Origin: a virus
Strand: one strand, 5' to 3'
Virus record (IMG/VR): IMGVR_UViG_3300006924_000032
Span: 1-51,152 of that record
Length of the DNA stretch: 51,152 bases
The notes beneath the pieces were generated by a model, which worked only from the letters and a program-made list of their open reading frames with translations, ran no database searches and was not told where the DNA came from. Position 1 is the first letter of the stretch. The number at the start of each line of letters is the position of its first letter. Below, in pieces: positions 3,223-28,400 of the stretch. A program made the position numbers and the translations under genes.

Positions 3223-3709
3223 ATCTTAAAGTTTTTGTAAAGATACAAATTTTATTTAGGTGTCCAGAACCATGAGGTTCTATAGCACCACACGCATGAC
3301 ACCCCCTGACCGAAACCAATTTTTTTTTGCTACCCCCCCCTAACGATTCTGCCCAGCTATCCTAGATTTTTTTGCCTTTTTTATTGACCTGTCCTGTCCC
3401 TTGGTCCTGCTGTAGCTACCCACCTACCACAGTACACACTACGCCTACCCCAGCCCCTGTAATATACGTACTAATAACCCCTATGCCCCACCACGTTTTC
3501 CAGATAAACTCTTTAAAGAGCACAGAGATGTGCGTTAACCTCTCGGCCAGTCTCCAGAGGGCTAAACATTTAATAGGGAACAAAGCCACATAATACGCTG
3601 AGATTGAATAAGTTAACTGCGAAAGCCACAATTCTTATTTAGAACGAATATAAACAACAAAAATAAGTTATTGAAAGTCAGTTAGTTACAAGTTTTTTTC
3701 ATTTAGGCC
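3223..3709. other. Non-coding region without a credible gene
   Basis: No open frame here looks like a real gene. Frames of 60-73 codons exist on both strands but have non-ATG starts or shadow-like composition. Visible elements are a hairpin AGAACC-ATGA-GGTTCT at 3266-3281, a run of eight C near 3334, a pyrimidine-rich, C-rich strand bias at 3330-3500, and GCGAAAGCCACA at 3619-3630. The last also occurs as a leader hairpin after two of the hammerhead ribozymes. A TGAAAGTCAGTTAGTTA element lies at 3672-3688. Confidence 0.6.
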
Positions 3710-3845
3710 TTGTGAGAACGAAAGATATAGACTATATTTGAACCAGAAATAAACCACGTTCATTGACATTCTGACCTAAGCTACTGAGAATCAAGCAGTT
3801 ACGATATTTACTTCATGTAAACTGCTGATAATCAATCATTTAACG
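3672..3845. repeat. Three degenerate copies of the TGATAATCAG-type motif
   Basis: TGAAAGTCAGTTAGTTAC at 3672, CTGAGAATCAAGCAGTTACG at 3784 and CTGATAATCAATCATTTAAC at 3825 are variants of the element at 2892 and 12667. In the two perfect forms the core CTGATAATCAG is an interrupted inverted repeat (CTGAT-A-ATCAG). These copies flank the promoter at 3710-3740. Confidence 0.5.
3710..3740 (+). promoter_or_regulatory. Promoter for the ribozyme-punctuated small-gene operon
   Basis: TTG at 3710-3712, a 20-base spacer, and TATATTTG at 3733-3740 match the Bacteroidota sigma consensus (-33 TTG, -7 TAnnTTTG). It is the only good promoter upstream of the plus-strand array. The predicted start is near 3745, which gives an unusually long leader of about 380 bases before the first ATG at 4128. 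Confidence 0.65.
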
Positions 3846-4127: not shown

Positions 4128-4448
4128 ATGCAATACACAAGAAAAATGTTCAACAACGAATTTGACAAAGAAGAAATCAGCCACATGACTCCAGAGTCAA
4201 TCAAGGCGTTTATCGAACTAAAGAAGATGGGCTGTCCAGTAGATATCTGGTATCAGAACAAGAGAGGATACGAAGATTACAGAGGGTACTTCTGGATAAA
4301 AGCAGAGGAGCACGATGCAGAGCTGTGGGTAGATTACTACGATGCTGAAATGTACTGGGGTAGTGAGAAGCTACAGAAAACACTGGAGAAGCATGGGCTG
4401 TACTTCGAGTGGCAGAACTCAGCAGTGGGTTGTGTCTATGATGCTTAG
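4128..4448 (+). CDS. Hypothetical protein, first gene of the array
   Basis: 106 residues with many aromatic and acidic residues (Trp and Tyr clusters such as DIWYQNKRGYEDYRGYFW). There is no recognised motif, signal peptide or membrane segment. The leader AAATTAATTATTATG resembles the leaders behind the ribozymes. The stop TAG (4446-4448) abuts hammerhead 1, sharing its first base. Host-takeover or regulatory roles are typical for such early phage genes, but nothing in this sequence proves one. Confidence 0.75.
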   Translation: MQYTRKMFNNEFDKEEISHMTPESIKAFIELKKMGCPVDIWYQNKRGYEDYRGYFWIKAEEHDAELWVDYYDAEMYWGSEKLQKTLEKHGLYFEWQNSAVGCVYDA

Positions 4449-4497
4449 ATTAACTGATGAGACCTTATAGGTCGAAACGCCGAGAGGCGTCTTAATC
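4448..4497 (+). ncRNA. Hammerhead ribozyme 1 (type I)
   Basis: Stem I is GATTAA (4448-4453) with TTAATC (4492-4497). The core is CTGATGA (4454-4460) and GAAA (4474-4477). Stem II is GACC-TTATA-GGTC. Stem III is CGCC-GAGA-GGCG, closed by a GNRA tetraloop. The predicted cleavage site is GTC at 4489-4491, cutting between 4491 and 4492, 21 nt before the next ATG at 4513. Confidence 0.95.
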
Positions 4498-4512
4498 TTA
4501 AAAACTATTATT

Positions 4513-4704
4513 ATGAGTACTACAGAAACATTATCGTTGTATCACTACAACCAAGACCAAGTAACAGAAATCAAATTTGACCAGTACGGAAGACCATACG
4601 TCCAATCCTATACCGAGTATGACTCCGAAGGGAACATCTTAAGTGTAGGTGGCCGTTTTATGCTATCGATGAAGACAGGTTATGAATTTACAATCTCAAA
4701 CTAG
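4513..4704 (+). CDS. Hypothetical small protein
   Basis: 63 residues, predicted mostly beta. It contains TEIKFDQYGRPYVQSYTEYDSEGNILSV, an alternating pattern of aromatic and polar residues with a turn-like DSEGN (the fragment is described here by its character, not as a motif hit). I recognise no family. It is the first gene of the message whose 5' end hammerhead 1 would create, and is followed 5 bases later by a second small gene. Confidence 0.65.
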   Translation: MSTTETLSLYHYNQDQVTEIKFDQYGRPYVQSYTEYDSEGNILSVGGRFMLSMKTGYEFTISN

Positions 4705-4709
4705 AATCT

Positions 4710-4856
4710 ATGAAGTTTACGAAAGAACAACTGGAAATCATCGCTTACTGCCTATCACTTTGCGAAAGTGACTTTGAAGGCAAAACTCAAGAACAAATGC
4801 ACCATATCCTAGGAAAGCTACAGCAGAAGGGAATCTGGGGAAGCATCGAAGATTAA
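4710..4856 (+). CDS. Hypothetical small protein
   Basis: 48 residues starting MKFTKEQLEIIAYCL and ending GIWGSIED, predicted helical with two cysteines. The stop TAA (4854-4856) is the last three bases of the 5' strand of stem I of hammerhead 2. It is too short for most gene finders but is supported by the shared architecture: a gene, then a stop inside the ribozyme. Confidence 0.65.
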   Translation: MKFTKEQLEIIAYCLSLCESDFEGKTQEQMHHILGKLQQKGIWGSIED

Positions 4857-4901
4857 CTGATGAGTCCTAACTGGACGAAACGGCCTCTGGCCGTCTTAAT
4901 C
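4851..4901 (+). ncRNA. Hammerhead ribozyme 2 (type I)
   Basis: Stem I is GATTAA (4851-4856) with TTAATC (4896-4901). The core is CTGATGA and GAAA. Stem II is GTCC-TAACT-GGAC and stem III is CGGCC-TCT-GGCCG. Cleavage is predicted after C4895. The distance to the next ATG (4928) is 32 nt because a GGC-GAAA-GCC hairpin (4903-4912) is inserted in the leader. The upstream stop codon lies in stem I. Confidence 0.95.
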
Positions 4902-4902
4902 A

Positions 4903-4912
4903 GGCGAAAGCC
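4903..4912 (+). promoter_or_regulatory. 5' leader hairpin GGC-GAAA-GCC
   Basis: A 3-bp stem with a GAAA tetraloop, 7 nt downstream of the predicted new 5' end. An identical element follows hammerhead 9 (8720-8729). It could protect the 5'-OH end or tune translation; this is inference. Confidence 0.6.
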
Positions 4913-4927
4913 ACAAAAACTATTATT

Positions 4928-5092
4928 ATGAATACTATTATCAATGAATTCAAAAATGCTCAAACTGTATCTCAAAAACTTGGCTTTGCTCTATGTGGCA
5001 TGCTGTTCAGTCTGTTCTGTGTATCACTTCCGATGCTGGTCGCTGACCTTATCATCAATGGTGCACCGAGTAGCTTTGGTTTACTAGGTTAA
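4928..5092 (+). CDS. Small membrane protein
   Basis: 54 residues. After an N-terminal polar helix (MNTIINEFKNAQTVSQK) comes a hydrophobic stretch of about 25 residues (LGFALCGMLFSLFCV... to ...ADLII) that can span the membrane once. The stop TAA (5090-5092) is inside stem I of hammerhead 3. A single-pass inner-membrane protein encoded early could act in superinfection exclusion or lysis timing; that role is speculation. Confidence 0.65.
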   Translation: MNTIINEFKNAQTVSQKLGFALCGMLFSLFCVSLPMLVADLIINGAPSSFGLLG

Positions 5093-5140
5093 CTGATGAG
5101 TCCTCACAGGACGAAACCACCTCAACAGGTGGTCTTAATC
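5087..5140 (+). ncRNA. Hammerhead ribozyme 3 (type I)
   Basis: Stem I is GGTTAA (5087-5092) with TTAATC (5135-5140), one G-U pair replacing the A-U pair of the other copies. The core is CTGATGA and GAAA. Stem II is GTCC-TCACA-GGAC and stem III is CCACCT-CAAC-AGGTGG. Cleavage is predicted after C5134, 20 nt before ATG 5155. The upstream stop codon TAA is in stem I. Confidence 0.95.
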
Positions 5141-5154
5141 TTAAAATTATTATT

Positions 5155-5463
5155 ATGACTACAAAAATTGAATTGAAAAGTGGTTTCTCTAATGGATACC
5201 TTCCAGAAGGAGTGACCTACAAAAACTACACGATGTTGGTAGCGATTGCCAACTACTCAGAGAACGGCTCATGTGTGAGCACTGCCTCTGGTCTTCTGGA
5301 CGAAGACAATGACCTAGCAAAGAAACGAGGCCTTCTGGCTACTACTGGTGGCTTTATGTCAGCTGTGGCACGTGGTGACTTTGCGACTGCATGGAACAGA
5401 GCAGACTACAAGAACAGACAGGCACTACTGAAAGGGCTTGAGAACTTAGAGATAGAGCTATGA
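5155..5463 (+). CDS. Hypothetical protein
   Basis: 102 residues with no recognised family. The first half looks like beta strands (YTMLVAIANYSENGSCVSTASG) and the second half is helical (KKRGLLATTGGFMSAVARGDFATAWNRADYKNRQALLKGLENLEIEL, described here as amphipathic helices). Its stop TGA overlaps the next start as ATGA, so translation is probably coupled. First gene of a four-gene message between hammerheads 3 and 4. Confidence 0.75.
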   Translation: MTTKIELKSGFSNGYLPEGVTYKNYTMLVAIANYSENGSCVSTASGLLDEDNDLAKKRGLLATTGGFMSAVARGDFATAWNRADYKNRQALLKGLENLEIEL

Positions 5464-5630
5464 TAAACGAGGTTTACATAGATTTTATGAACAAGGACAA
5501 TGGGTTTAAAACTGAAAGAAAGTATTTTCAAACCTATGAAGATGCTCATGTATGGGCACTGGATAACTTGGATAAGTTTAATCATGACATGATAAGTTAT
5601 ACCGAGTACGAAAAACCAATAAAAAACTAA
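5460..5630 (+). CDS. Hypothetical small protein
   Basis: 56 residues (MINEVYIDFMNKDNG...EYEKPIKN). It starts in an ATGA overlap with the previous gene. A strand-turn-helix pattern with YFQTYEDAHVWALDNL resembles the 'TPEEAQQEA' helix of the protein at 6525, so the two may share a small fold, but identity is too low to claim homology. Confidence 0.6.
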   Translation: MINEVYIDFMNKDNGFKTERKYFQTYEDAHVWALDNLDKFNHDMISYTEYEKPIKN

Positions 5631-5633
5631 AAT

Positions 5634-5765
5634 ATGGATAGTTACACAAAAAAAGTAATACTAAACAATGTTGAAAAAATAATACTAAGGCTGAAAGATG
5701 AAATAGGCCATACTAATGGTATGTACGTTTCAAATGAAATATTAAAACAAATTAAAAAATTATGA
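5634..5765 (+). CDS. Hypothetical very small protein
   Basis: 43 residues, mostly helical and basic (MDSYTKKVILNNVEKIILRL...QIKKL). It begins 3 bases after the previous stop. Its own stop TGA overlaps the next ATG (ATGA at 5762-5765). Nothing is recognised. Confidence 0.55.
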   Translation: MDSYTKKVILNNVEKIILRLKDEIGHTNGMYVSNEILKQIKKL

Positions 5766-5878
5766 GTAAATACAGCAATTGTTGTGGAGCAACACCATCG
5801 TGGTTGAGTGACTCCCTGTGTAGTGACTGCCATGAGCATGCAGAATTCTACAAGGAAACCGAAGACCAAGAAGATTAA
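5762..5878 (+). CDS. Small zinc-ribbon protein
   Basis: 38 residues. NCCGA near the start and LCSDCHEHAEF further on form a CC...CxxC arrangement typical of tiny phage zinc-ribbon proteins; the His residues could also take part. The stop TAA (5876-5878) is inside stem I of hammerhead 4. The family is often found in early regions of phages, with no established function. Confidence 0.7.
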   Translation: MSKYSNCCGATPSWLSDSLCSDCHEHAEFYKETEDQED

Positions 5879-5926
5879 CTGACGAGTCCTCATAGGACGA
5901 AACGGCTCTCTCGAGCCGTCTTAATC
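5873..5926 (+). ncRNA. Hammerhead ribozyme 4 (type I)
   Basis: Stem I is GATTAA (5873-5878) with TTAATC (5921-5926). The core is CTGACGA, with C instead of T at the tolerant seventh position, and GAAA. Stem II is GTCC-TCATA-GGAC and stem III is CGGCTC-TCTC-GAGCCG. Cleavage is predicted after C5920, 21 nt before ATG 5942. The stop codon is in stem I. Confidence 0.95.
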
Positions 5927-5941
5927 TTAAAACTAAATATT

Positions 5942-6097
5942 ATGACAAAGAAAGATTTTATCTGGCTATGCAATGAGCACAGCGTAAACCCCTCAATAGT
6001 TATGGAAGACGAGGGAGCAATACAAATATTAAAAGAATTCAAGGGTACTGTATTTCAGCAGATGGCTCTTAACTCATATTTAACTAAAAACTATTAA
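5942..6097 (+). CDS. Hypothetical small protein
   Basis: 51 residues (MTKKDFIWLCNEHSV...SYLTKNY), helical, with no recognised domain. First of three genes between hammerheads 4 and 5. Confidence 0.6.
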   Translation: MTKKDFIWLCNEHSVNPSIVMEDEGAIQILKEFKGTVFQQMALNSYLTKNY

Positions 6098-6107
6098 TAT
6101 AAATATT

Positions 6108-6257
6108 ATGATAACAAGAACACTATCTATGAAAAGTCATTGGTACAAGACGTACAAGACTATAACAAAAAAATTTAATGACGAGCAACACCTCAGCAAC
6201 TACATAGACTTTATGGAGTCCAGAGGTTACAAAACAATTGGAATATTTAAAAACTAA
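6108..6257 (+). CDS. Hypothetical small basic protein
   Basis: 49 residues (MITRTLSMKSHWYKTYKTI...YKTIGIFKN), rich in Lys and Tyr. The leader AAATATTATG is like its neighbours. It is followed 4 bases later by the next ATG. Confidence 0.55.
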   Translation: MITRTLSMKSHWYKTYKTITKKFNDEQHLSNYIDFMESRGYKTIGIFKN

Positions 6258-6261
6258 AATT

Positions 6262-6462
6262 ATGACAGAACTAGAAATTGAACAACTGACTTCATCGGTT
6301 GAATTTACCATCCTCGAATGGTCAGACAAAGTCGATAACTTGAGTGCTAAAGATGTAGGGCTTCTTATGTACAAGCTAATCGAGAAGAATGTAACTCATG
6401 ATGCAACACAAAGGCATATGATGTATGATGTGCTTGATGCACTTGAACAACACATAGGTTAA
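6262..6462 (+). CDS. Hypothetical small acidic helical protein
   Basis: 66 residues from ATG 6262, preceded by AACTAAAATT. A longer frame would need a TTG at 6238 inside the previous gene and is unlikely. The protein is helical (MTELEIEQLTSSVEFTIL... DVLDALEQHIG). The stop TAA (6460-6462) is in stem I of hammerhead 5. Confidence 0.65.
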   Translation: MTELEIEQLTSSVEFTILEWSDKVDNLSAKDVGLLMYKLIEKNVTHDATQRHMMYDVLDALEQHIG

Positions 6463-6510
6463 CTGACGAGTCCTGAAAGGACGAAACTACCTTTCGAGGT
6501 AGTCTTAATC
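6457..6510 (+). ncRNA. Hammerhead ribozyme 5 (type I)
   Basis: Stem I is GGTTAA (6457-6462) with TTAATC (6505-6510), including a G-U pair. The core is CTGACGA and GAAA. Stem II is GTCC-TGAAA-GGAC. Stem III is CTACCT-TTCG-AGGTAG. Cleavage is predicted after C6504, 20 nt before ATG 6525. The stop codon is in stem I. Confidence 0.95.
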
Positions 6511-6524
6511 TTAAAACTAAAATT

Positions 6525-6770
6525 ATGAAAACAATGTACAAAGTAGTAACGATGGACGAGTTTGGTCTCAATGTAACACAGCAAGATGGGTTTAAAACAC
6601 CAGAAGAAGCACAACAAGAGGCTAAAGAATGCATCGAAAGGTGGGGAGAAATGTTCGGTCAAGATTTCTGGGTAGAGCCATACGAACAAGAGCCATACAA
6701 AGAGCCAAAGCAGTACGCTTACCCAAACTCAGTAGATGGGTGGGAAGACATTTATCCAACAAGAGATTAA
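6525..6770 (+). CDS. Hypothetical acidic protein
   Basis: 81 residues. Strand YKVVTMDEFG is followed by an amphipathic helix TPEEAQQEAKECIERWGEM and an acidic, Tyr- and Pro-rich tail (EPYEQEPYKEPKQYAYP). No family is recognised. It is alone on its predicted message; the stop TAA (6768-6770) is in stem I of hammerhead 6. Confidence 0.7.
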   Translation: MKTMYKVVTMDEFGLNVTQQDGFKTPEEAQQEAKECIERWGEMFGQDFWVEPYEQEPYKEPKQYAYPNSVDGWEDIYPTRD

Positions 6771-6816
6771 CTGATGAGGTCTTACAGACCGAAACGCACT
6801 TCGGTGCGTCTTAATC
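6765..6816 (+). ncRNA. Hammerhead ribozyme 6 (type I)
   Basis: Stem I is GATTAA (6765-6770) with TTAATC (6811-6816). The core is CTGATGA and GAAA. Stem II is GGTC-TTACA-GACC, a double compensatory change relative to copies 2-5. Stem III is CGCAC-TTCG-GTGCG with a UUCG tetraloop. Cleavage is predicted after C6810, 21 nt before ATG 6832. Confidence 0.95.
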
Positions 6817-6831
6817 TTAAAAATAAATATT

Positions 6832-7164
6832 ATGACTTACGAAAGTAAATTAAAAAAAGTACAAGAACGTTTCAATTTTAAATTGACTGATGACTACAGA
6901 AGACCAGACTATGCAATCTATAGCCAGACTACTGCTGATGGGTATGAGGTCTTTGTGGCACATGAGCCAGACTCACAATTGAATATTGAAGATGATGTTT
7001 TCTACTACGACAGCGACCTATCTGAAAGACTCGAAGAGGTTATAAGAGACAATGAATATGTTGCCGATAAGGAAGAGTATATCATATACGTTGATGACCT
7101 TGAGTACGAATGGATTGAGTATGCGATAGATGAAATTATTGGAGATGCCCTTGAAGAAGATTAA
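6832..7164 (+). CDS. Hypothetical highly acidic protein
   Basis: 110 residues with a strong negative charge in the C-terminal two thirds (DDVFYYDSDLSERLEEV, EYIIYVDDLEYEWIEYAIDEI). Such acidic early phage proteins can mimic DNA or bind host polymerase or restriction enzymes, but no such family is recognised here. It is alone on its predicted message; the stop TAA (7162-7164) is in stem I of hammerhead 7. Confidence 0.75.
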   Translation: MTYESKLKKVQERFNFKLTDDYRRPDYAIYSQTTADGYEVFVAHEPDSQLNIEDDVFYYDSDLSERLEEVIRDNEYVADKEEYIIYVDDLEYEWIEYAIDEIIGDALEED

Positions 7165-7212
7165 CTGATGAGACTTCAATAGTCGAAACCACCTGAGAAG
7201 GTGGTCTTAATC
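7159..7212 (+). ncRNA. Hammerhead ribozyme 7 (type I)
   Basis: Stem I is GATTAA (7159-7164) with TTAATC (7207-7212). The core is CTGATGA and GAAA. Stem II is GACT-TCAAT-AGTC and stem III is CCACCT-GAGA-AGGTGG with a GNRA loop. Cleavage is predicted after C7206, 22 nt before ATG 7229. The stop codon is in stem I. Confidence 0.95.
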
Positions 7213-7228
7213 ATTAAAAATTATTATT

Positions 7229-7507
7229 ATGAGACAATTTGAAATTTTGAGAGAAAGAATCTCATCACGTGGTGGTGGGATAGAGATTAGCCTAACTCCG
7301 TTTGGCTATGATAACCAGAAGATGACAACCTACTGCAACTACCTTGGTGGTGGTATGCTTGGTAGTATCCAGAACGACTGCACTATACACAACTGGCAAG
7401 GTAATCCAGAGTTAACAAAGGTAGCTGTAGAGCTAAGCCAGATGTTTGCTGAACTTCTGGAAGTAGATTATAATTTTAACCAAGGCCTACCAGTATCGGC
7501 CTACTAA
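7229..7507 (+). CDS. Hypothetical protein
   Basis: 92 residues with a Gly-rich segment (SSRGGGIEISLTPFGYDN, YLGGGMLGSIQND) and a C-terminal helix. No family is recognised. First of three genes between hammerheads 7 and 8. Confidence 0.7.
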   Translation: MRQFEILRERISSRGGGIEISLTPFGYDNQKMTTYCNYLGGGMLGSIQNDCTIHNWQGNPELTKVAVELSQMFAELLEVDYNFNQGLPVSAY

Positions 7508-7519
7508 AAACTATACAAA

Positions 7520-7861
7520 ATGAAACACACAAAAGAAATTAACGGAATCACCTACGACATTTTAAATCGTGGGTGGGAAACCAGTCGAGCATGGGGTCAC
7601 AAATCTGAACTCTATGCTAACGGAAACTTTATTAGCGAAGCCAAGGTAAGATACTACAACAGAACATGGGAGTCCTACAGATTTAGGTCTTGCATGCAGA
7701 AGCTAGTGGGTGACTTGATTGAGGATAGAGAAAGAACTTATCTTCGTATCTACAAGGAAAACAATGGGATAAAAAGACTGACAGCCGACATGAAGCGTGA
7801 AGCACTGGCTAAATCAACAAACCCAATAAGAAATTTAAAAAAACTTTATGAAACAATTTAA
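7520..7861 (+). CDS. Hypothetical basic protein
   Basis: 113 residues, rich in Arg, Lys and aromatic residues (GWETSRAWGHKSELY, RYYNRTWESYRFRS). Nucleic-acid binding would fit this composition but is not shown. Its 3' end overlaps the start of the next gene by 14 bases. Confidence 0.7.
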   Translation: MKHTKEINGITYDILNRGWETSRAWGHKSELYANGNFISEAKVRYYNRTWESYRFRSCMQKLVGDLIEDRERTYLRIYKENNGIKRLTADMKREALAKSTNPIRNLKKLYETI

Positions 7862-8114
7862 GATGAAAGCAAACCACAAAGCACAGAAATTGATAGTAGA
7901 ATACTTCAACCTCAACAACGGATATCCAGACGATGAGAATTACGACTGGAACTACTATGATATTCAAGGATATCAAGAAGACTTGGACGAAAGTCCTGTA
8001 GAAGATGCCTTCGACATAGAGGATATTGAACATCTTCAGATGCGTATAAAATACCTACGCATGTACTACGAAGCCAAAGAAAAACTAGAAGTTTATGGCC
8101 ACGTGTACGCTTAA
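7848..8114 (+). CDS. Hypothetical acidic protein
   Basis: 88 residues; a basic N terminus (MKQFKMKANHKAQK) followed by an acidic middle with DDENYDWNYYD and DLDESPVEDAFDIED. The stop TAA (8112-8114) directly precedes stem I of hammerhead 8 rather than lying inside it. Confidence 0.7.
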   Translation: MKQFKMKANHKAQKLIVEYFNLNNGYPDDENYDWNYYDIQGYQEDLDESPVEDAFDIEDIEHLQMRIKYLRMYYEAKEKLEVYGHVYA

Positions 8115-8179
8115 GATTAACTGATGAGGATTCAGTATCCGAAACAGCTGTGCAATCTATTTGCATGGCTGTCTTAATC
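8115..8179 (+). ncRNA. Hammerhead ribozyme 8 (type I, long stem III)
   Basis: Stem I is GATTAA (8115-8120) with TTAATC (8174-8179). The core is CTGATGA and GAAA. Stem II is GGAT-TCAGT-ATCC. Stem III is extended to about 11 bp (CAGCTGTGCAA with TTGCATGGCTG, including two G-U pairs) around a 5-base loop. Cleavage is predicted after C8173, 21 nt before ATG 8195. Confidence 0.94.
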
Positions 8180-8194
8180 ATTAAATTTTTTATT

Positions 8195-8455
8195 ATGAAA
8201 GTTAAAATTTTACAGCGAAATGTGTACTACAAAGTAGCAACAATCGAAATCGAAATACCAGACTCAGTTGATGAGTTTGATGTACAGGAATACGTGAATG
8301 AACACGAAGAATTATGGGTTGAGCAACTCGAAGAACAGATGAGAGCCACTGACTATGAGTATGGTTTTGGAATGGACACTGACTATAACTGGACAGACGA
8401 AGACCAACCATGCGAGTACAGATACGAAGTAGATAAGATAGGAGGGCACTTATGA
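8195..8455 (+). CDS. Hypothetical highly acidic protein
   Basis: 86 residues from ATG 8195. The frame is open back to 8150, but that would start inside the ribozyme; the 21-nt leader rule supports 8195. It opens with strands (KVKILQRNVYYKVATIEIEI) and then is strongly acidic (DEFDVQEYVNEHEELWVEQLEEQM). The stop TGA overlaps the next ATG. Confidence 0.7.
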   Translation: MKVKILQRNVYYKVATIEIEIPDSVDEFDVQEYVNEHEELWVEQLEEQMRATDYEYGFGMDTDYNWTDEDQPCEYRYEVDKIGGHL

Positions 8456-8595
8456 AAATTAAACAGCATAAAATTCTGCCGACTGGACTACACGCAGTCG
8501 TAGACCAGAAAAATAGAGTACATATCTACACAGAATTAGAATACCAACAGCTAACGTGGTGGAAGAAAGTTAAATTACAGAATGGCTGGAAGTAG
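8452..8595 (+). CDS. Hypothetical small basic protein
   Basis: 47 residues (MKIKQHKILPTGL...WWKKVKLQNGWK), beta-rich and basic, translated from an ATGA overlap with the acidic protein before it. The opposite charges of the pair suggest they might interact; this is inference. Last gene before the internal promoter. Confidence 0.6.
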   Translation: MKIKQHKILPTGLHAVVDQKNRVHIYTELEYQQLTWWKKVKLQNGWK

Positions 8596-8614
8596 ATTTA
8601 CTATGCGTGCATAG

Positions 8615-8650
8615 TATATTTGCATATGTCTAAATTAAGTTTTATATTTG
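8615..8650 (+). promoter_or_regulatory. Internal promoter just upstream of hammerhead 9
   Basis: TATATTTG occurs at 8615-8622 and again at 8643-8650. TTTG of the first copy is 20 bases upstream of the second TATATTTG, so it can serve as the -33 element. The predicted start (about 8655) is only a few bases before stem I of hammerhead 9. The interval 8596-8660 has no gene. Confidence 0.6.
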
Positions 8651-8660
8651 TCGAACTTTA

Positions 8661-8718
8661 GATTAACTGACGAGACTTTAGTAGTCGAAAGAGTAGGAGT
8701 TATCCTACTCTCTTAATC
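8661..8718 (+). ncRNA. Hammerhead ribozyme 9 (type I)
   Basis: Stem I is GATTAA (8661-8666) with TTAATC (8713-8718). The core is CTGACGA and GAAA. Stem II is GACT-TTAGT-AGTC and stem III is GAGTAGGA-GTTA-TCCTACTC (8 bp). The cleavage triplet is CTC instead of GTC, still a permitted NUH site; the cut is predicted after C8712. The next ATG is 34 nt away because of a GGC-GAAA-GCC hairpin in the leader. No gene ends in this copy. Confidence 0.94.
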
Positions 8719-8719
8719 A

Positions 8720-8729
8720 GGCGAAAGCC
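8720..8729 (+). promoter_or_regulatory. 5' leader hairpin GGC-GAAA-GCC
   Basis: Same element and position as at 4903-4912: it starts 7 nt after the predicted cleavage site and is followed by AC and an A/T-rich run to the ATG at 8747. Confidence 0.6.
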
Positions 8730-8746
8730 ACTAAAATTATTTTATT

Positions 8747-8953
8747 ATGAGTATAAATGCAATGAAAATGTTCATGCTCCTTGGAGACATGACCAACGAA
8801 AACAGCACCTTGGCAGACAAGGTAGCTTACAAACAGCGTATAGCGTTTGCGACAATGCGTAATGCTATTCCAGACTGGCAACCACCTAGTGACTGGGACA
8901 CACTTTCAGATGAAGTTAAGATGAAACGTTTAACCAAACTCATGGAAGTATGA
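8747..8953 (+). CDS. Hypothetical helical protein
   Basis: 68 residues, helical, starting MSINAMKMFMLLGDMTNENS and ending RLTKLMEV. No family is recognised. Its stop TGA overlaps the next ATG. First gene behind hammerhead 9, on the message that leads towards the replication genes. Confidence 0.7.
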   Translation: MSINAMKMFMLLGDMTNENSTLADKVAYKQRIAFATMRNAIPDWQPPSDWDTLSDEVKMKRLTKLMEV

Positions 8954-19125: not shown

Positions 19126-19499
19126 TGACCGAAAAGGTAAAAGCTATAACTAAATTTACCGAAAGGTTTAGCGGTAGATATAAAAAGCTTAGTCCTGATG
19201 ACGTAGACTTCAGGGTATACGATAAAGAAAATAATCTTATAGCCTTCGTATTGGTAATACCTACAAAGAAAAAGGTAACCGACTGCTATCCATTAGCAGT
19301 ATCATTAAACAAACTATCTCAGCTTACATTAAAACGATTGAATCCAGTTATAATCTGGGCCTGTGAAGACGGCATTATGTATGGCAAGGTAAAAGAAATA
19401 TACGGAACTGTATCTTGGATGGGCACTACAGAACTAAACTCAGAGCTAGTTGTGCAGTACCCAAAGCAAAAAACTTTTAAGTACGCTAGGTATTATTAA
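19125..19499 (+). CDS. Hypothetical protein
   Basis: 124 residues, beta-rich with a pattern reminiscent of a small nuclease-like or DUF fold (DFRVYDKENNLIAFVLVI, NPVIIWACEDGIMYGKV). It starts on the last base of the phosphoesterase gene. The stop TAA overlaps the stop of the convergent minus-strand gene by 2-3 bases. No family is recognised. Confidence 0.65.
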   Translation: MTEKVKAITKFTERFSGRYKKLSPDDVDFRVYDKENNLIAFVLVIPTKKKVTDCYPLAVSLNKLSQLTLKRLNPVIIWACEDGIMYGKVKEIYGTVSWMGTTELNSELVVQYPKQKTFKYARYY

Positions 19500-22400
19500 T
19501 CAAGACCCATAGCTGCGTCTATCTCTTTCTGGAGGTCACGCTTTCTTTTTCTCTCGTCTTTCTTTAATTGTTCTATAGGAGCTAAGCTACCACCTGGTCC
19601 GTACAACTCTTCATATAATCCAGGAGTAAATTTTTTCATATCTGACTTGCTCATTGATTTTGTTTTACCACCCTCGTTCTTAGGTCGGTAAGATGGAGAG
19701 ATACCCATAACATCATACATTGCTGGGTCTACATCCTCTTCTTCACCTGCAAAGTAATTATATAAACCAATGAAAGGGTCAAGCTGTGCACCTATTGTAA
19801 TCTCAGTTAATGCTCTTACTACAGCACCGACTTTATTTTCATCATTCTTAGTAAGCTTTCTGTATTTTTGTATCACACTAGCAACAGGATTGACGATATC
19901 ATCATTAAAGATTCTACCTTTCTGCTTATACTCTTCTCCTTTGACAGCAGATATTGTTCTACCTGCCACATCAAACCCCTCTATTGTAGAGCCTAAGAAT
20001 GGTATTTGATAGATAAGATTTAATCCCATCATTGCTTCAGCCATTTTCTTGAGTGCCGCTTCTTTGTCTTCGTCATCTCCCTTAATAAATTTAGCTATAT
20101 TAGATACACCTACAAATAATACGTTGGCTACAGCTAAGTTTAAAGCTAAATCTCTAGTGTCTTTTGAACGTGGTCTTTTCTTCTGTGAAATATCTCTAGT
20201 AACATTGGTCGTGCTCTGCATAACCTTGTTCATCTGCAGAAATAACGTACTACCGAACATGGTAAATGCTCGATTAAATATATTGCTGTTCATTTGAAGT
20301 GGAATCTTATCTGTTCCTCTTCGTGATTGCTGTGTAGCATTGTAATCATTAAAAGCTTTTACAGCATCAGCCTTACTCATTCCGTTTGCAATGTTACGTT
20401 TATAGTTAATCATATAACCCATAACACCTAAAACATCACCAATAATAGTTGGCGAAGCAGCTGCAGTTTTAAAAGCAGCCTGTGCTTTCTTAAGTCTACC
20501 ACCAGTCAAAGCCGTTTTCTTAAATGTTTGTGAACCAGATTCTAGTCCATAAACATCTCCTTCAAGGCCTTGCTCTACCCTTTTTCTAAAGGTAGGAGAT
20601 ATCTCCATAGCCTCTCTTACAGCTCCTTTTTTTCCAACTAAGTCTTTACCTAGTGATAAAGCAACTCTTGCTCCATCAAACATAAACATAGGTAAATCAA
20701 CTGCAGCCTGTACTACTCTAGGAACTTTAGAATCGGCAGAGAAGTAACTATAGTCAGAGTAAGCATTAACAAATGAAGTAGACTGCTTAAGTATCTGTAT
20801 AGCTTTAAACGCCAGAGCAAAACCTGTAAACTGAGTTTGTAATCTTGCTATAAGTTTTATACTTAGACTTGCATCCTTTCCAGAGTCAGGATTGATGGCA
20901 AAGTTAACAGCCTTTTTAATTGGACCAGTTACACCCATCTCTTCTAGCAATACATTAACAGAGTCAATCTTAAATAAAGCATTCAGTCTCTGTGTGCCTA
21001 CAGCATACGCTTTATATTTCTCCATTGTATCAACATGATTCCTAAGAACGCTTGTAAATGTGCCAGCGTGAAGGTCTACATCAGACCTCATATCAACCCT
21101 TTCTTTAAACGCAGGAGCAGACTCCGCATTAAATACACCACTGAAGTCTCCATCAGTAATCATCTTCTTAGTGGTTTCTTTCTGTATTGTTGATGTTGGG
21201 AAGTAGTTATTTACATATCCTAAGTTAACATCATTAACGTATGAGTATACATCGTTAACACTCTCATAGTATTCATTGCTTAAGAAGTTTACAGTTTTGT
21301 CAGTAAACTCTACAGCTTCTGGACCTATAATGTTTTTAATATTTTCTATAACCTCAGGAGTTATGCCTTGTGCTTCGAGCTTTTGTCTTTGAGTATCATT
21401 CAAGCTAAGCGCATACATACGCATGAGTTCGTCTGCATTAAACCTATCAGTATACTCTCGGCCAGTATCACTACGCTTTAATTTTAAAACATGAACACCA
21501 CTATTAAGTTTGGAATATATTTGTTTTACTCCTTTAGTTATACCAGGGATTGTGTTAGCTATATCATCAAGCTTCTTTTGAGTTTGAAATAATCCTCCGT
21601 TGTTAAGGTCATCCATTCTATTTAAAGCATCGTAAACATTCTTGGTAAAAAAGTTTTTACCCTGCGTTACCCTGTCTAGTACATTACTTAATGTTCCTAA
21701 ATGCTGGAACATCTGCTTCATGTTCTGGATAAAGTCTTTAGCCGTACTAAACTTCATTCTTTCAGATAAAGATGAAAGCCCTTTACCTATTTCAAAATTT
21801 CTGAAGTGAGATAGTATCTCATTCTTTCTAGCGTTACGCTCATTTCTATTTAAAACATTTCCATCAGCATCAAACAGCATAGGATTGGTATCCTTAATCT
21901 GAGCATCAGCCTCCTCTTTCATCTTCTTGTTTGCCTCTACTCTTGCTAGTCTTCTTGATTTAAACGTAGCGATTGATTCAGCTCTAACATCTTTAAGCTG
22001 TTGCATTAAGCCTTGAACTTCTTCTAAGCTCATGTTAGATACATCACCAAAGGTATCAAAAGCTAGAGCCTGATTAACTTTAGCTTGCTCTTTCTGAGTT
22101 AGCTTCTGTCCATCTTGTTGTTTCTCTATAAGATTACTTATCTCTGAGCTCTCATTCTGCAGGTCCTCCTGTATTTTATTAAGGGTATCTACATCAGCTG
22201 TAAGTATCTGCTTAACTGCTTTGAAGTATGCTGTACCTTCTTTACTTAAACCTTTAGCTCTACGCTTACCAGACTTAGTGAATGCAGTCATAGCTTTTGC
22301 TTTGACTAGTTTAAGCATGTCCTTAATGGCAGCTTTCTTCATCTTAGTTTTCTGTTGGTCTACAATATTCATCACATACTCAGTGTCTGCCTGGAATGTG

Positions 22401-25400
22401 TCCACTGTAGACTTTGTAACACGTGATATAAGCTTGTTTATTTGAGCTTGAGTATACATCTTGGACTTTGGCAAAGCCTTTCTTATATAGTTCCTCAGTT
22501 GTATCTGTGCGGCCTTTAGATTTTGGCTATTTATTTTACGCTGTCTTAGGTTGTTTTTAATCGCAGCTATTTCTTTTTGCACAGCAACATTAGAACGTGT
22601 GTCTAAAGTCTTGTCAAAGTCCACTAGAATCTCCATCTGAGTTTGTTCTGGCTGAGCTTTGTAGATTGGATTCTCTTTAATTAAATCCATTGCCTTTTGT
22701 CTCACCTCAGATAATGTTTTCTCTGGTGTGGTAAACTTAGAAAGCTTCTGTCTCACCTCTTTAAACAACTGCATTCCTTCCTTTACACCACCCTCAACTC
22801 TACCAAACGCTTCTGGTAGCTGAGTAAATGCATCCACGTTTACCTCCATTGCGGAGGTTATGTCTGCAACTTTAAAGCCTCTGTCTTTTAAAACCTCTTT
22901 AATAGATGCGTCCGAGAATCCGTTCTGTCTCCCCTTATCTATGATAGCACCCATTGAATCTGTCTTACTGAATGCAGCATCAGGATTCTTAAGTTTTTTC
23001 TTCTGAGCTTTAGTAAGGTTTATTTCTTTACCAGCAAAGATATCAGCAAGTGCAGTTCCTAGAAATGTATCTAGATTCATGTCCTGAATTTCTTCAGCCG
23101 TCAAATCTTTTGACATTTTAAATTGAGACTTGATGTAGTTCCACATACCTAAAAGCCACTGAGTAAACTTACTCTTCACTGCTCCGTCTGCTATAGTCTG
23201 TCCTTTGTTTCCAATAAGGATAGCCATAGTTTCATTAGCGGCCTTTGCTTTGTCTCCGTTGAAGTTCTTAAGTTGCTTCTTATATTCCTCTGTTTGCTCT
23301 ACAAGTTTTACACCTTGTGCATATATAGCTTTTCCTTTCTTTGTAGTCTGTAAGTAGTCAGTCCACACGTGACCCATCTCATGAATAGATGTGTTAAATA
23401 AAGCAGATTGAGAATTATGTACATCTGGATTTATATATATATCACCATCAACAGTAACACCATATATAACCTCATCACCTTTAAGATATTTTTTAACACC
23501 CTCAGACTCCATAACATTATTAAATGTTGAGCCCTCAGTGGATATAGTGACAGACGGAAATGCAATATTCATAAAAGCATTTAGCTTAGCAGCATCATCC
23601 ATATTAGTCTGCGCTAGTGCTCCTACGAAATCTCTACCAGGCAATCCCCATTGAACAAGTAATGTATTATTTAAGATGATATCTACACTAGATGGAGCAA
23701 GCTCACCCTCAACTAGTTCTCCTTTGCTTCGTTCAGCCTTTGTTTTAGTTACTGTTTCTTGTTTTCCCTCTGCTTTTGTTAAGCCTGCCATAGCTAATTT
23801 GTAAGCTTCTGGATAGGTGTCTACTAGTGAAACAGGCTGCTCTAATATCCCTATGGTTTTTCCTTTAGGACCAAAAGGATAATTAGGGTGATTTGTTTCT
23901 ATAACATCATCAACTGTTACATCAACCGCTTGTAATGCTATTATACTTCTTGATGGTATATTAGATAGTTGAGGCTCAGTAATAAGGTCTGTAATTTCCT
24001 GTATATGAGTTAAGCTAGCAGTCTCTGTGCTAGCCTCCATACCCTCTAACAAAGCAAGAACTACAGGCTTACCTTTTTTATTTGGCATGCTTACTTTTGT
24101 CTTTGGTGTACCAGGCTTGCGAATAGACCCAGAAGTGAGTCTTTTACTTAAAAATTCACGAGTAGGTATGGTAAGCTGAGCTAAAAACCCTGCATCTAAA
24201 ATCTGTTCTATAGATTTAAAATTTTCTATAGAGCTTAATATTTTTTTATAACCATCTATTTCTTCTTGGTATTTACCTAAGCTGCTTTCACTGAGCTTAC
24301 CTTGTTTCATAGATGCAGTTCTTTTGTCTATAAAATTTTGTAAGTCTTGTCTTAAAACCTCTAGAGCTTTTACTTTGTTTTCAGCAGGTACTTTAGACAG
24401 GTTGTCTTTAAGTACTCTAAAAACAGCCTCATTTGAAGCTATAGAGCCCTCGCCCATCTTAACGATATTCATAGGAACGTGTCCATTAAACTCTGGATTA
24501 TCTTTCCAGAATTTATCAAACAATTCTTCGTTATCTTTGTATACTTCCTTTGCTTTATTGAGCAACTTTAAAGCCTCTTCTCTTGTAGTACTAGCCCACG
24601 CAGCGTTCTCATTTCCAATTGTACCAGTAAAACCTAATCCACCTCTTAATTTATTTATGGTGTTTCCAGTAAAAATATTTACAATGTTACCTGTAGTAAG
24701 CTGGTCTGATATATTAAATATAGCAGGAATACCATTAATTACCTCTAATGTTTTTATTGATGGAAGCTTTCTGTCTGTTCTGCTATTGAGTTCGTTAACA
24801 TCAATAGTACCCTCAGGTTCTACCACAAGATTGGTAGACACATTTCCTGACTGTGTTTCGTTGATTGCCTTAGTGACTGCATCTACTTCACCTTTTATAG
24901 GAGTAAATGAATCGTCTTCTTTCTTTCTGAAGTCTACCTTAGTATCATCTAAGGAAGTTTCTAAATCAGTAACTTCTTGTGCCGCAGCAGTTGCGCTAGC
25001 TTGTAGCTCTTTTATTCCTGGTAGGTATTCTTCTGTAGTAATACCCTGGAACTTAGCGTCATTCTCTACTGCTTGGAGGAGCGAGTTATAAAGACTTGAC
25101 CCAGTCTGTCGGTCAGCGGACCTTTTGCTCGCAGCTCGTCCAAGAATTTCTTTCCTTTTTCCCTGGTCGACATAGACGGAGTTGACTGCTCGGTAGTTTT
25201 GTTTTTCATAAGTAATATTATTAGCTTCTAATTCCTCTACAAAGATACCAATTTTATCTTGAAGAGTTGGGTCATCAAAGTCAAATATATTTATAAAACT
25301 TACTTCCCCTGTATCTTCGTTAATAGTAAAATCAGTTATCCCTGCTTTTTTCAAAGCATCTATTGTGCCTTGAGTATTTGTCACACTTAATGTGTATTCA

Positions 25401-28400
25401 TTTCCATTGTGGTTTTCTGCTCCCTCTTCAACATAAGTGGCAGCAATGCTACTCTCTTGTGTTTCAGGAGCTAAGGAAGCTGCTAATGCAGCATACTCTT
25501 CCGCTTGTTCTATTGTTGCATTCTTCAATACAACTCTGTTAGATATTTCTACTATCTCTGTACCTGCATCGTTTTTATACCCACCGATACCCTCTTCAAC
25601 TTCAACTTCTAAACCTAGTTGTTGTCCTATACCAGTTAAGTTATTTTTATATTGCTGATAGCCCTCGCTTTCTCTTAACGTCTGTGCTTGTTCAGCACTC
25701 TCAATTGTAGTGTCAAAGAATGGAGCAACAGCTACGACTGTCTCTGGTTTAGTAGTAGGTGTTACAGTTGTCTGTTGTTTTCTAATTTGAAAAAGTCTTT
25801 GTGCTTCTTTTACATTATTAAAACTTTCTTGTCTTAAATCAAGAGCTTCTTGTTCGGTTATCTCACCATCTTCCATGGCTCGTGTAACAGCTTTCATCTT
25901 CTCTCTTCTTTGAGCACCTATATCATTATAATCTTCAGATACTTCAATAGAGGATAAAGGATTAGTACCAACAACTTGTGGTACTTCTACTTCCTGCGTT
26001 TCGGTGGTCTCAACAACTTGTGGTACTTCTACTTCCTGCGTTTCGGTGGTCTCAACCCTTGGGGTTTCTTCGAGTGATACTTCTGTTCCCACTCCTGTGC
26101 CAATTGCGGCTTGTTGGCGTGCATCCACGCTCTCTGTTTCTGGCTTTTGAACGGCATCTATTTTATTTTTTAATTGGTTAGCAACCTCTTCATCATTAGC
26201 AACCTTACCATTGAACTTAAGCAACTGACTGGCGCTCATCTTACCAAGCTTCTTTAAAAAGTCTTGCTTACTATAACTCTTTCCATCAATTACGTACTTA
26301 GATAACTCAGCTCTTACATCACCAACCTCTACGCCTGGTGAGAATATAGCTTCTATCTTTGCTCTCTGGTTATCTGGAGCTAATGTTTTATTTTCTAATA
26401 GATATGCAATCTCTCCATTGATATCTTTTATCTTCTGACCAAACACTTCTTTACGGTTAGTGTCTGCAGAGTATTCTTCTTTGGCTGCTAATAATTCCAT
26501 TAGCCTAGCCTTAACCTTCTTATTATTTGGTTTATTTTTACCAGCACCAAAGTCTAGCATATTGTCTGCATCCTTAGATAGGCCTAAGTTTTTTTGTATA
26601 CGCTGCCCTTGGTCTTCATTAATCTTACCAAGCTCAACCATGTTATTGGTCCACGCAGATATTCTGGTGTCTGATTCTTTCTCGTTTACAAGATAGTTTA
26701 TATCTGTAAGCTTAGATGCTAGTTCTATATTGGAATTATTTCTTGCGTCTATAAGTTTATTTACCACCATCATACTGGCGTTGTTTCCAAAGCCACCAAT
26801 ACCCTCAGCGGCTATCTCTTTGAAATCTAATTCATCACCAACTGAAATTTGAGCTGCTGTTTCACCAGCCATCTCTCCAAAAGGGTCAAAGACAGCACGT
26901 TCAGCTAATTGCGATGCAATCTTTTTAGTTCTAGTTGCAACCTTTCCTACTTGAAAAACACGACCAGCTAATCCTGCTGTAAGATAATCGACCATAGCAA
27001 TAGGAATACCTCGTTTTAATCCACGCTCCTTTGCTAATGCCCATACATCTGCATCTTGCATAGCTAACTCAACGTCCTTAGCATTAAGAACATCATATCC
27101 CTCAGACTCCATAGCTGCAAAATATTCATTAGTATATTCCATAGCTAAGGCTGTTAAAGCAAATCCAGCTTTAAATCCTTTTCCTGCACCAGCAATTGCA
27201 CCTGGGACAGCGCCTACCCCACCAGCTGTTGCTCCGAATCCAGCTCCTATACCTGCTCCTACACCTACAGAGGAAGTAACTATTTCAGCTCCATAAGGCA
27301 ACATCATTCCTATGGAGTTAGCCGCAAACGCAAGCGCCGTTTCTTTTGGGTTACGTAAAAACGCATCCATACTCTCTCTAAAACCTTTAGCTCTGTTCCA
27401 TCTGGAAAGTGCTTTTGAATCTTTATATTTTCTATTCTTGGTCTTGAGAGCCACTATCATTTCAGCAGCTTTCTTTCTATCCTCCTCATTATCAAGGTCT
27501 AGTGATTGAAAATCAAAAGCCATTCCTGTAGATAACTGAAGTATTATTTCAGAAGCATTACCATCATTCAGTCCTTTTGTTAATTCAGAATATACTGCTG
27601 AAGAGTTTTCCTCAAACTCATCCATAATAGTTTTATCATACTTGGAGCTATAAAAAGTTTTAGCTGCCTCATAAATATTTGCGGCATGTTGCTTTTCTGA
27701 ATTTAAAGATGCTTTTTGAATTTTAAAATTATCCAATATCTGCGCCTCTTGTTCTGTCTTGGGCTCTATATCTGTAAGGTCTTCTAGCCTAACACCAAAG
27801 GTTTGTAGTGACTGTACTTGTAAGGCATCTTCAAAAGCCACAGCCTCATAGTTGGCACGTGATGCGTCCTTAGCTATAGCTGAATATTTTTTTTGTAATG
27901 TTAGGTCATACTTTTCTCTAAGAGCTATCATCTCTTCTGTGTTAACCTCGCTGTATAAGTCAGCCTCTCTTTGAGACAATTCTTTTATTACCTCTCTAAA
28001 ATCATCACGAAGCTGTCCGTTTACATAAAAGCTTCCGAATTTTTTCTGCTCTTCTTCAGACAACTCGTCTAGTCTTCTCTCAAGACCTTTTGCTTTTAAG
28101 CCTTGTCCGCTGAAGCTTATACCCATTTCATCTTCTATGAAATCAATCTCATCTCTCACCTTTAGATACTCATCGTATCTTGCTTTCTCAGCCTTAAAAT
28201 TTAATCCTACCTCGCTATATATACTTTTTCCTACAGCATCTGTAGAGTGCGTGTCTTTCCATTCTCCCTCAGCAAATCTCTGTGCTTCTTCCTCGGTGTC
28301 AAACTGGAAAACTTCACCTCTTTCTTCGGCTACTTTTTTTGCTTCATCAAAATCTAACTTCATCCAGTCATTAGGATTCGTTCCGTAAAACTCAGGATTT

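Follow-up and report, generated by a model that had tools for sequence, protein, structure and literature searches.

The window analysed here is the whole of IMG/VR virus record IMGVR_UViG_3300006924_000032, 51,152 bases, and nine copies of a type I hammerhead ribozyme motif stand within 4.3 kb of it, in an operon of small phage genes. We consider it probable, at about 0.68, that these hammerheads cut the early operon transcript between genes into about ten messages. The motif itself, its covariation, its position relative to genes and its conservation in relatives are read directly from the sequences. When both strands were scanned independently for the core and its stems, with short paired stems required, exactly nine copies were found, all on the + strand and none elsewhere in the window; they are the same nine that an earlier note, made from the letters of this sequence alone, had listed before the scan. 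The copies are as follows.

4448..4497, + strand: hammerhead 1; predicted cut after 4491; the upstream TAG at 4446-4448 shares its first base; next ATG at 4513
4851..4901, + strand: hammerhead 2; predicted cut after 4895; stop at 4854-4856 in stem I; next ATG at 4928
5087..5140, + strand: hammerhead 3; predicted cut after 5134; stop at 5090-5092 in stem I; next ATG at 5155
5873..5926, + strand: hammerhead 4; predicted cut after 5920; stop at 5876-5878 in stem I; next ATG at 5942
6457..6510, + strand: hammerhead 5; predicted cut after 6504; stop at 6460-6462 in stem I; next ATG at 6525
6765..6816, + strand: hammerhead 6; predicted cut after 6810; stop at 6768-6770 in stem I; next ATG at 6832
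7159..7212, + strand: hammerhead 7; predicted cut after 7206; stop at 7162-7164 in stem I; next ATG at 7229
8115..8179, + strand: hammerhead 8; predicted cut after 8173; long stem III; the stop at 8112-8114 abuts it; next ATG at 8198
8661..8718, + strand: hammerhead 9; CUC site; predicted cut after 8712; promoter-like element before it; next ATG at 8747

The catalytic core, CUGANGA ... GAAA ... NUH in this order, is intact in 9/9 copies, as the earlier note had stated, and the predicted cleavage site is GUC in eight of the nine and CUC in the ninth. Stem I is 6-8 bp long, stem II 4-5 bp and stem III 4-11 bp. Under the three-helix architecture, in which stem I is open and stems II and III are closed by loops, standard pairs fill 126/126 pair cells, compared with 81% in shuffles, and the paired fraction of the nine copies drops to 15-43% when the structure is slid. 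The compensatory change in stems II and III that had been claimed from inspection was borne out, since 7 of 14 pairs differ on both sides (3.7 in shuffles, of which 0/500 reach the observed number). Covariation is limited to these two stems, and stem I is nearly invariant, with TTAATC in all nine copies, GATTAA in seven and GGTTAA in two. Reversed and complemented (not reverse-complemented) sequences of 124 loci gave zero matches in the same scan.

The search with Rfam Hammerhead_1 (RF00163), which the earlier note had proposed as a check, matched 4/9 copies at 21-30 bits, against a gathering score of 34 that is a threshold of the library and no structural feature. When we used R1, a family model built from 42 viral copies, the nine window copies, eight of which are in its seed, scored 56-69 bits; the model also detected unseeded copies in the cultured phages phi19:3 (Cellulophaga; 21769-21817) and elemoA at 49-53 bits, and matched many copies in viral contigs. 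An A just outside stem I, at position -7, is present in 9/9 window copies, and in 188/188 viral copies with a U-first pentaloop in loop II versus 54% of the remaining copies, an association that fits the expectation for a tertiary contact between stem I and loop II. By these features the nine elements appear to belong to a type I hammerhead subtype common in phages, with a 6-bp open stem I, an invariant A outside it, a 4-bp stem II and a UNANU-like pentaloop. They share core and topology with RF00163 and differ from it in the short stem I without internal loop, the UNANU pentaloop II and the A at -7. In L274, two hammerhead-like copies (1870-1922 and 3498-3550) share the unusual stem II UUGC UAAUU GCAU and are without the G-C beside the core; the pair is possibly a core variant.

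There is nearly no separate intergenic space around the array copies. The upstream stop codon lies inside stem I in six of them, within its GATTAA or GGTTAA, overlaps by one base in one and abuts in one, and stem I or the catalytic core is touched by a stop in 7/9 copies. The next ATG is found 21-35 nt downstream of each predicted cut. In viral hammerheads collected with a search pattern that puts no constraint on stem I, 46/82 upstream stops lay at -14 to +1 of the core, compared with a mean of 3.9 and a maximum of 8 in 50 trials of a control that places anchors at random and has genome compaction outside its model, and 40/83 downstream ATGs of the same sample lay 12-40 nt past the cut. Over some 200 viral copies the stops peak at -3 (stem I), at -8/-9 and at +1, where the stop is the UGA within the catalytic CUGA; the -8/-9 and +1 peaks are present in the unbiased sample. 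The corresponding count in a viral sample selected for TTAA in stem I, 103/116 stops in that range, is biased by the pattern used to collect it. Because the motif offers stops in two of three frames, the enrichment may be due in part to genome compaction. Searches of the open-licence literature turned up no report of phage hammerheads with a stop codon inside.

The arrangement was then compared with that of related phages, in whose contigs array counts are lower bounds. Among the arrays listed, the densest are those of the window and of its close relative L252 (JAAGZR010000219.1), a 5.8 kb contig with proteins 73-100% identical to the window's; each has nine copies, and one of those in L252 has a long stem III insertion. 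Breakpoints in the alignment of the two coincide with start codons or with the edges of ribozymes. Gene 5942, identical in 51/51 aa, follows a different ribozyme in L252, the slots of genes 4128 and 4928 are filled by unrelated genes, and several other genes are inserted or missing; the same reshuffled pattern is seen in L262 (seven copies), L264-L273 and others. Gene 5762 retains its trailing ribozyme in relatives with other downstream genes, and the ribozyme after gene 6525 (hammerhead 6) has a different stem II and a different stem III in L252, both still fully paired. Wherever both flanking genes are conserved in the relatives compared, the ribozyme is present, and relatives without ribozymes are also without the window's gene pairs. 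The earlier note had named, as evidence that would count against it, close relatives that keep the genes but have lost the core; a search for such cases among the window gene pairs found none. Empty sites, that is the same gene pair with no ribozyme, were not found in a target set that is small and was partly gathered by the ribozyme pattern, and a search for loci related to that of the 102-aa gene 5155 returned none. The sequences of the relatives show signs of purifying selection on the ribozymes. L252 sits in an Aliivibrio metagenome-assembled genome, and is probably a misplaced fragment of a close flavobacterial-type phage relative, placed there by a binning error.

The corresponding region is also present in 68/68 matched records of Elemovirus, and in the seven Elemovirus sequences examined the ribozyme core follows a TAG stop. 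Stem II is GACU/AGUC in elemoA_7-9A and GGUU/AACC in elemoA_15-9B, elemoB and elemoC; between elemoA_7-9A and elemoA_15-9B there are 6 differences in 161 nt, and 4 of them form two compensatory stem II pairs. In elemoD, E (isolate elemoE_10-3D) and F stem II is the mismatched GACU/AACC, which looks like a recombinant of the two paired forms. One ribozyme is represented across isolates by intact, compensated and mismatched stem II. The array and its reshuffled relatives make the role of phage hammerheads testable, and above all so do Cellulophaga phi19:3 and the cultured isolates of Elemovirus, which share a single host, Flavobacterium sp. BAL314. NC_055852.1 (17275-17382) and other Elemovirus records have an annotated hypothetical gene opposite the ribozyme strand, which is probably the hammerhead antisense and no real gene.

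Copy 9 differs from the others in that no gene ends at its site. The features around it, and the hairpins found directly past stem I of copies 2 and 9, are listed below.

8600..8615, no strand assigned: near-palindrome ACTATGC(G/A)TGCATAGT, just upstream of the promoter-like element; possible operator
8619..8650, + strand: Bacteroidota-type promoter-like element TTTG-N20-TATATTTG, ending 10 nt ahead of hammerhead 9
4902..4913, + strand: hairpin A-GGC-GAAA-GCC-A after hammerhead 2, close to where the predicted 3' cleavage product begins
8719..8730, + strand: hairpin A-GGC-GAAA-GCC-A after stem I of hammerhead 9

Bacteroidota promoters have the form TTTG and TAnnTTTG. By itself the motif is weak evidence, because the window holds 4 matches where 2.9 are expected by chance. 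The stretch with the element is kept in five relatives, and the sole change in the -7 part is at one of its two free positions (TATATTTG or TACATTTG). L252 and L269 carry an insertion of two genes that separates the promoter-like element from copy 9, which stays with the downstream gene. From the element and these insertions it follows that at least copy 9 would define the 5' end of a downstream message. The hairpin A-NNN-GAAA-NNN-A directly past stem I is present in 2/9 window copies and, within the sample, only in the window's phage family, where its stems covary (GGC/GCC, GTC/GAC and GCC/GGC) and its count is 10 versus 1.5 in shuffles. L061, an 82.7 kb viral contig from an unrelated phage with six to seven copies, has a conserved sequence of some 30 bases (AAAAGTNAGGNGCANACTATAACAGGC) after each cut, which appears to be a different kind of leader element.

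Early T7 mRNA is cut between genes into separate messages by RNase III, a host protein, which leaves 5'-phosphates. The array is alike in that an early phage transcript would be split between genes, whereas the cutting would be done by the RNA and would produce 5'-OH ends. Hammerhead arrays with a proposed operon-cutting role are known from Perreault et al. 2011 (PMC3088659), and the claim of the earlier note that only single hammerheads were known, with no such phage operon described, was wrong. As described in that paper, hammerhead clusters flank genes in prophages, transcript processing was proposed for them, and three tandem arrays (Clostridium scindens, Azorhizobium caulinodans and Agrobacterium tumefaciens) cleave in vitro, one of them in E. 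coli. Those clusters resemble the window array in having several same-strand hammerheads around single genes or short blocks in phage DNA, with variable flanked genes; unlike them, the window has nine copies of one type I subtype within the 4.3 kb, in a flavobacterial phage. The main text of PMC3088659 does not contain the words 'stop codon', and the stop in the ribozyme, the promoter-proximal copy and the cassette reshuffling in relatives set the window apart from what is described there. The same source gives a hammerhead variant of the archaeal Halovirus HF1/HF2, 13 nt before a start codon and with a 5' end that maps no more than 3 nt from the cut; it is a single variant ribozyme that, like the window copies, lies shortly before a start codon. 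The density of the array, the stop codons that overlap the ribozyme, copy 9 close to its promoter-like element, the hairpin and the reshuffled cassettes look new, none having been found in the sections of PMC3088659 examined or in searches of the open-licence literature. The spacing of the ATG after the cut, and the compensatory stem II changes and natural mismatches in cultured Elemovirus, also look new. The stops within the ribozyme, copy 9 behind its promoter-like element and the reshuffled cassettes go beyond what the earlier note had described.

As an account of the anatomy (copies between genes, stops, starts and the signs of selection), the transcript-processing series proposed in that note is still the best reading; the processing step we infer. 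Each copy would cut during transcription of the early operon, just past the upstream stop and ahead of the next start, and one transcript would yield about ten messages. A short 5'-OH leader (UUAAUC...AUUAUG) would open each of them, and a folded ribozyme with a 2',3'-cyclic phosphate would form its 3' end. At copy 9, which lies behind the promoter-like element, the cut would shorten a primary 5' end. Cleavage and these end groups at the nine sites are what known hammerhead chemistry would predict, and separate messages would be the selected function. We favour transcript processing because of the intact cores and paired stems, the placement of stops and starts, the association of the A at -7 with loop II, the failure to find empty sites, the pairing kept by orthologous copies whose stems have changed entirely, the compensation in Elemovirus and the cleavage of earlier tandem arrays. 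Several observations weigh against it. The minimum-energy folds of copies 3, 5, 8 and 9 in isolation differ from the hammerhead, and flanking sequence competes for stem I in several copies. Compact phage genomes alone could draw stops into any intergenic element holding TAA or TGA. In L271, L272 and L275, with primase 86-91% identical, no copy was detected in the region examined, where other genes stand, indicating that the array would be dispensable over short evolutionary time.

The ribozymes may instead serve mainly the downstream message, by stripping upstream RNA and giving it a uniform short 5'-OH leader, separation from the upstream gene being incidental. This role would resemble that of RiboJ, a synthetic insulator in which a hammerhead and then a hairpin just before the gene produce a uniform 5' end, and we regard it as a serious possibility that falls short of even odds. 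It would account for copy 9, which lies past a conserved promoter-like element, hence has no gene to separate there, and follows its downstream gene through the two-gene insertion in L252 and L269; the leaders are also near identical, and two copies have the covarying GNRA hairpin after the cut. However, most copies are tied to the upstream stop as tightly as to the start codon, gene 5762 keeps its ribozyme with differing downstream genes, and the promoter evidence is at the motif level. Compared with RiboJ, the window array is natural and repeated, and the hairpin follows two copies only. It is somewhat unlikely that the repeats are mainly short homology islands for cassette recombination, where self-cleavage frees an inserted gene from its neighbours, hence insertion is tolerated. 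The new position of gene 5942 and the breakpoints at ribozyme edges in L252 agree with this, adjacency is broken at 8/14 ribozyme junctions versus 3/16 others, and stem II and stem III modules occur in new combinations. With p = 0.057 and junctions that are not independent, the idea of cassette seams is suggestive only, and selection for whole genes would likewise place breakpoints between genes. Stable stem-loops can converge, and module exchange is weakened as proof of recombination, since the pentaloop TCAAT and common tetraloop stems are found repeatedly in phages that are not related.

On the side of translation, the overlap of stop and core may let a terminating ribosome gate folding, so that the RNA is cut only after ribosomes clear and separation is coupled to upstream translation. 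The stop peaks, in particular that on the UGA of the core, point in this direction, but such stops may be merely the first available in a compact genome, and co-transcriptional folding may precede the first ribosome; we think this somewhat unlikely, about as much so as the homology islands. Less likely again is a full ribozyme-delimited cassette system, in which a gene ends in a hammerhead holding its own stop, termination releases the fold, the RNA cuts, each cassette turns into a message of its own behind a standard leader, and genes swap, insert and reorder at the ribozyme seams; with a single stem I common to all copies, the products could even religate in trans. That the elements are intrinsic terminators or plain hairpins and no ribozymes is very improbable. 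A terminator scan flagged stem III followed by CTTAATCTTA at 5 sites, but these are without a proper U-run, the invariant letters are those of the catalytic core and not of a stem, and both A(-7) and the pairing in three helices are features of hammerheads; plain repeats and terminators were rejected on core invariance, three-way pairing and the missing U-run. If each cassette does carry its own cutter and stop, the phage would have a protein-free means of splitting a transcript into single-gene messages and of accepting new genes without disturbing their neighbours, and the stop/core overlap in many viral hammerheads offers a concrete hypothesis joining translation and self-cleavage.

The + strand operon starts near 4128, with the small genes first, followed by recombination and replication genes.

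4128..8953, + strand: array region with about 19 small genes (38-113 aa), almost none of which has a known family

Pfam families were found for none of the small genes except DUF1281_C in gene 9060. The window also encodes terminase, portal, virion protein, GroEL, a Sak-like annealing protein, exonuclease VIII, primase and helicase. By gene content and tblastn relatives the phage appears to be podovirus-like and related to Elemovirus (Flavobacterium) and to Cellulophaga and Maribacter phages; the nearest full record, MW202828, has 77% amino-acid identity in the portal and 70% in the primase, and a flavobacterial host is taken from the relatives. No credible match to a tRNA or other RNA family was obtained in the window, and matches to SCARNA7, IS009, sR52 and Six3os1_3, with scores far under the gathering thresholds, were discarded. 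The phage-encoded GroEL (1131-2732, - strand) is found also in Elemovirus and MW202828. The region that separates the array operon from the divergent groEL contains tandem 11-base units AACTCAACACT (2917-2960) and 20-base direct repeats at 2889, 3669, 3782 and 3823, both iteron- or operator-like. A second Bacteroidota-type promoter-like match, TTG-N20-TATATTTG, is located upstream of the array at 3710-3740, and TATATTTG occurs on the - strand near 2756-2770, pointing to groEL. The largest protein of the phage by far is encoded by a 3294-aa open reading frame at 19496-29380 on the - strand.

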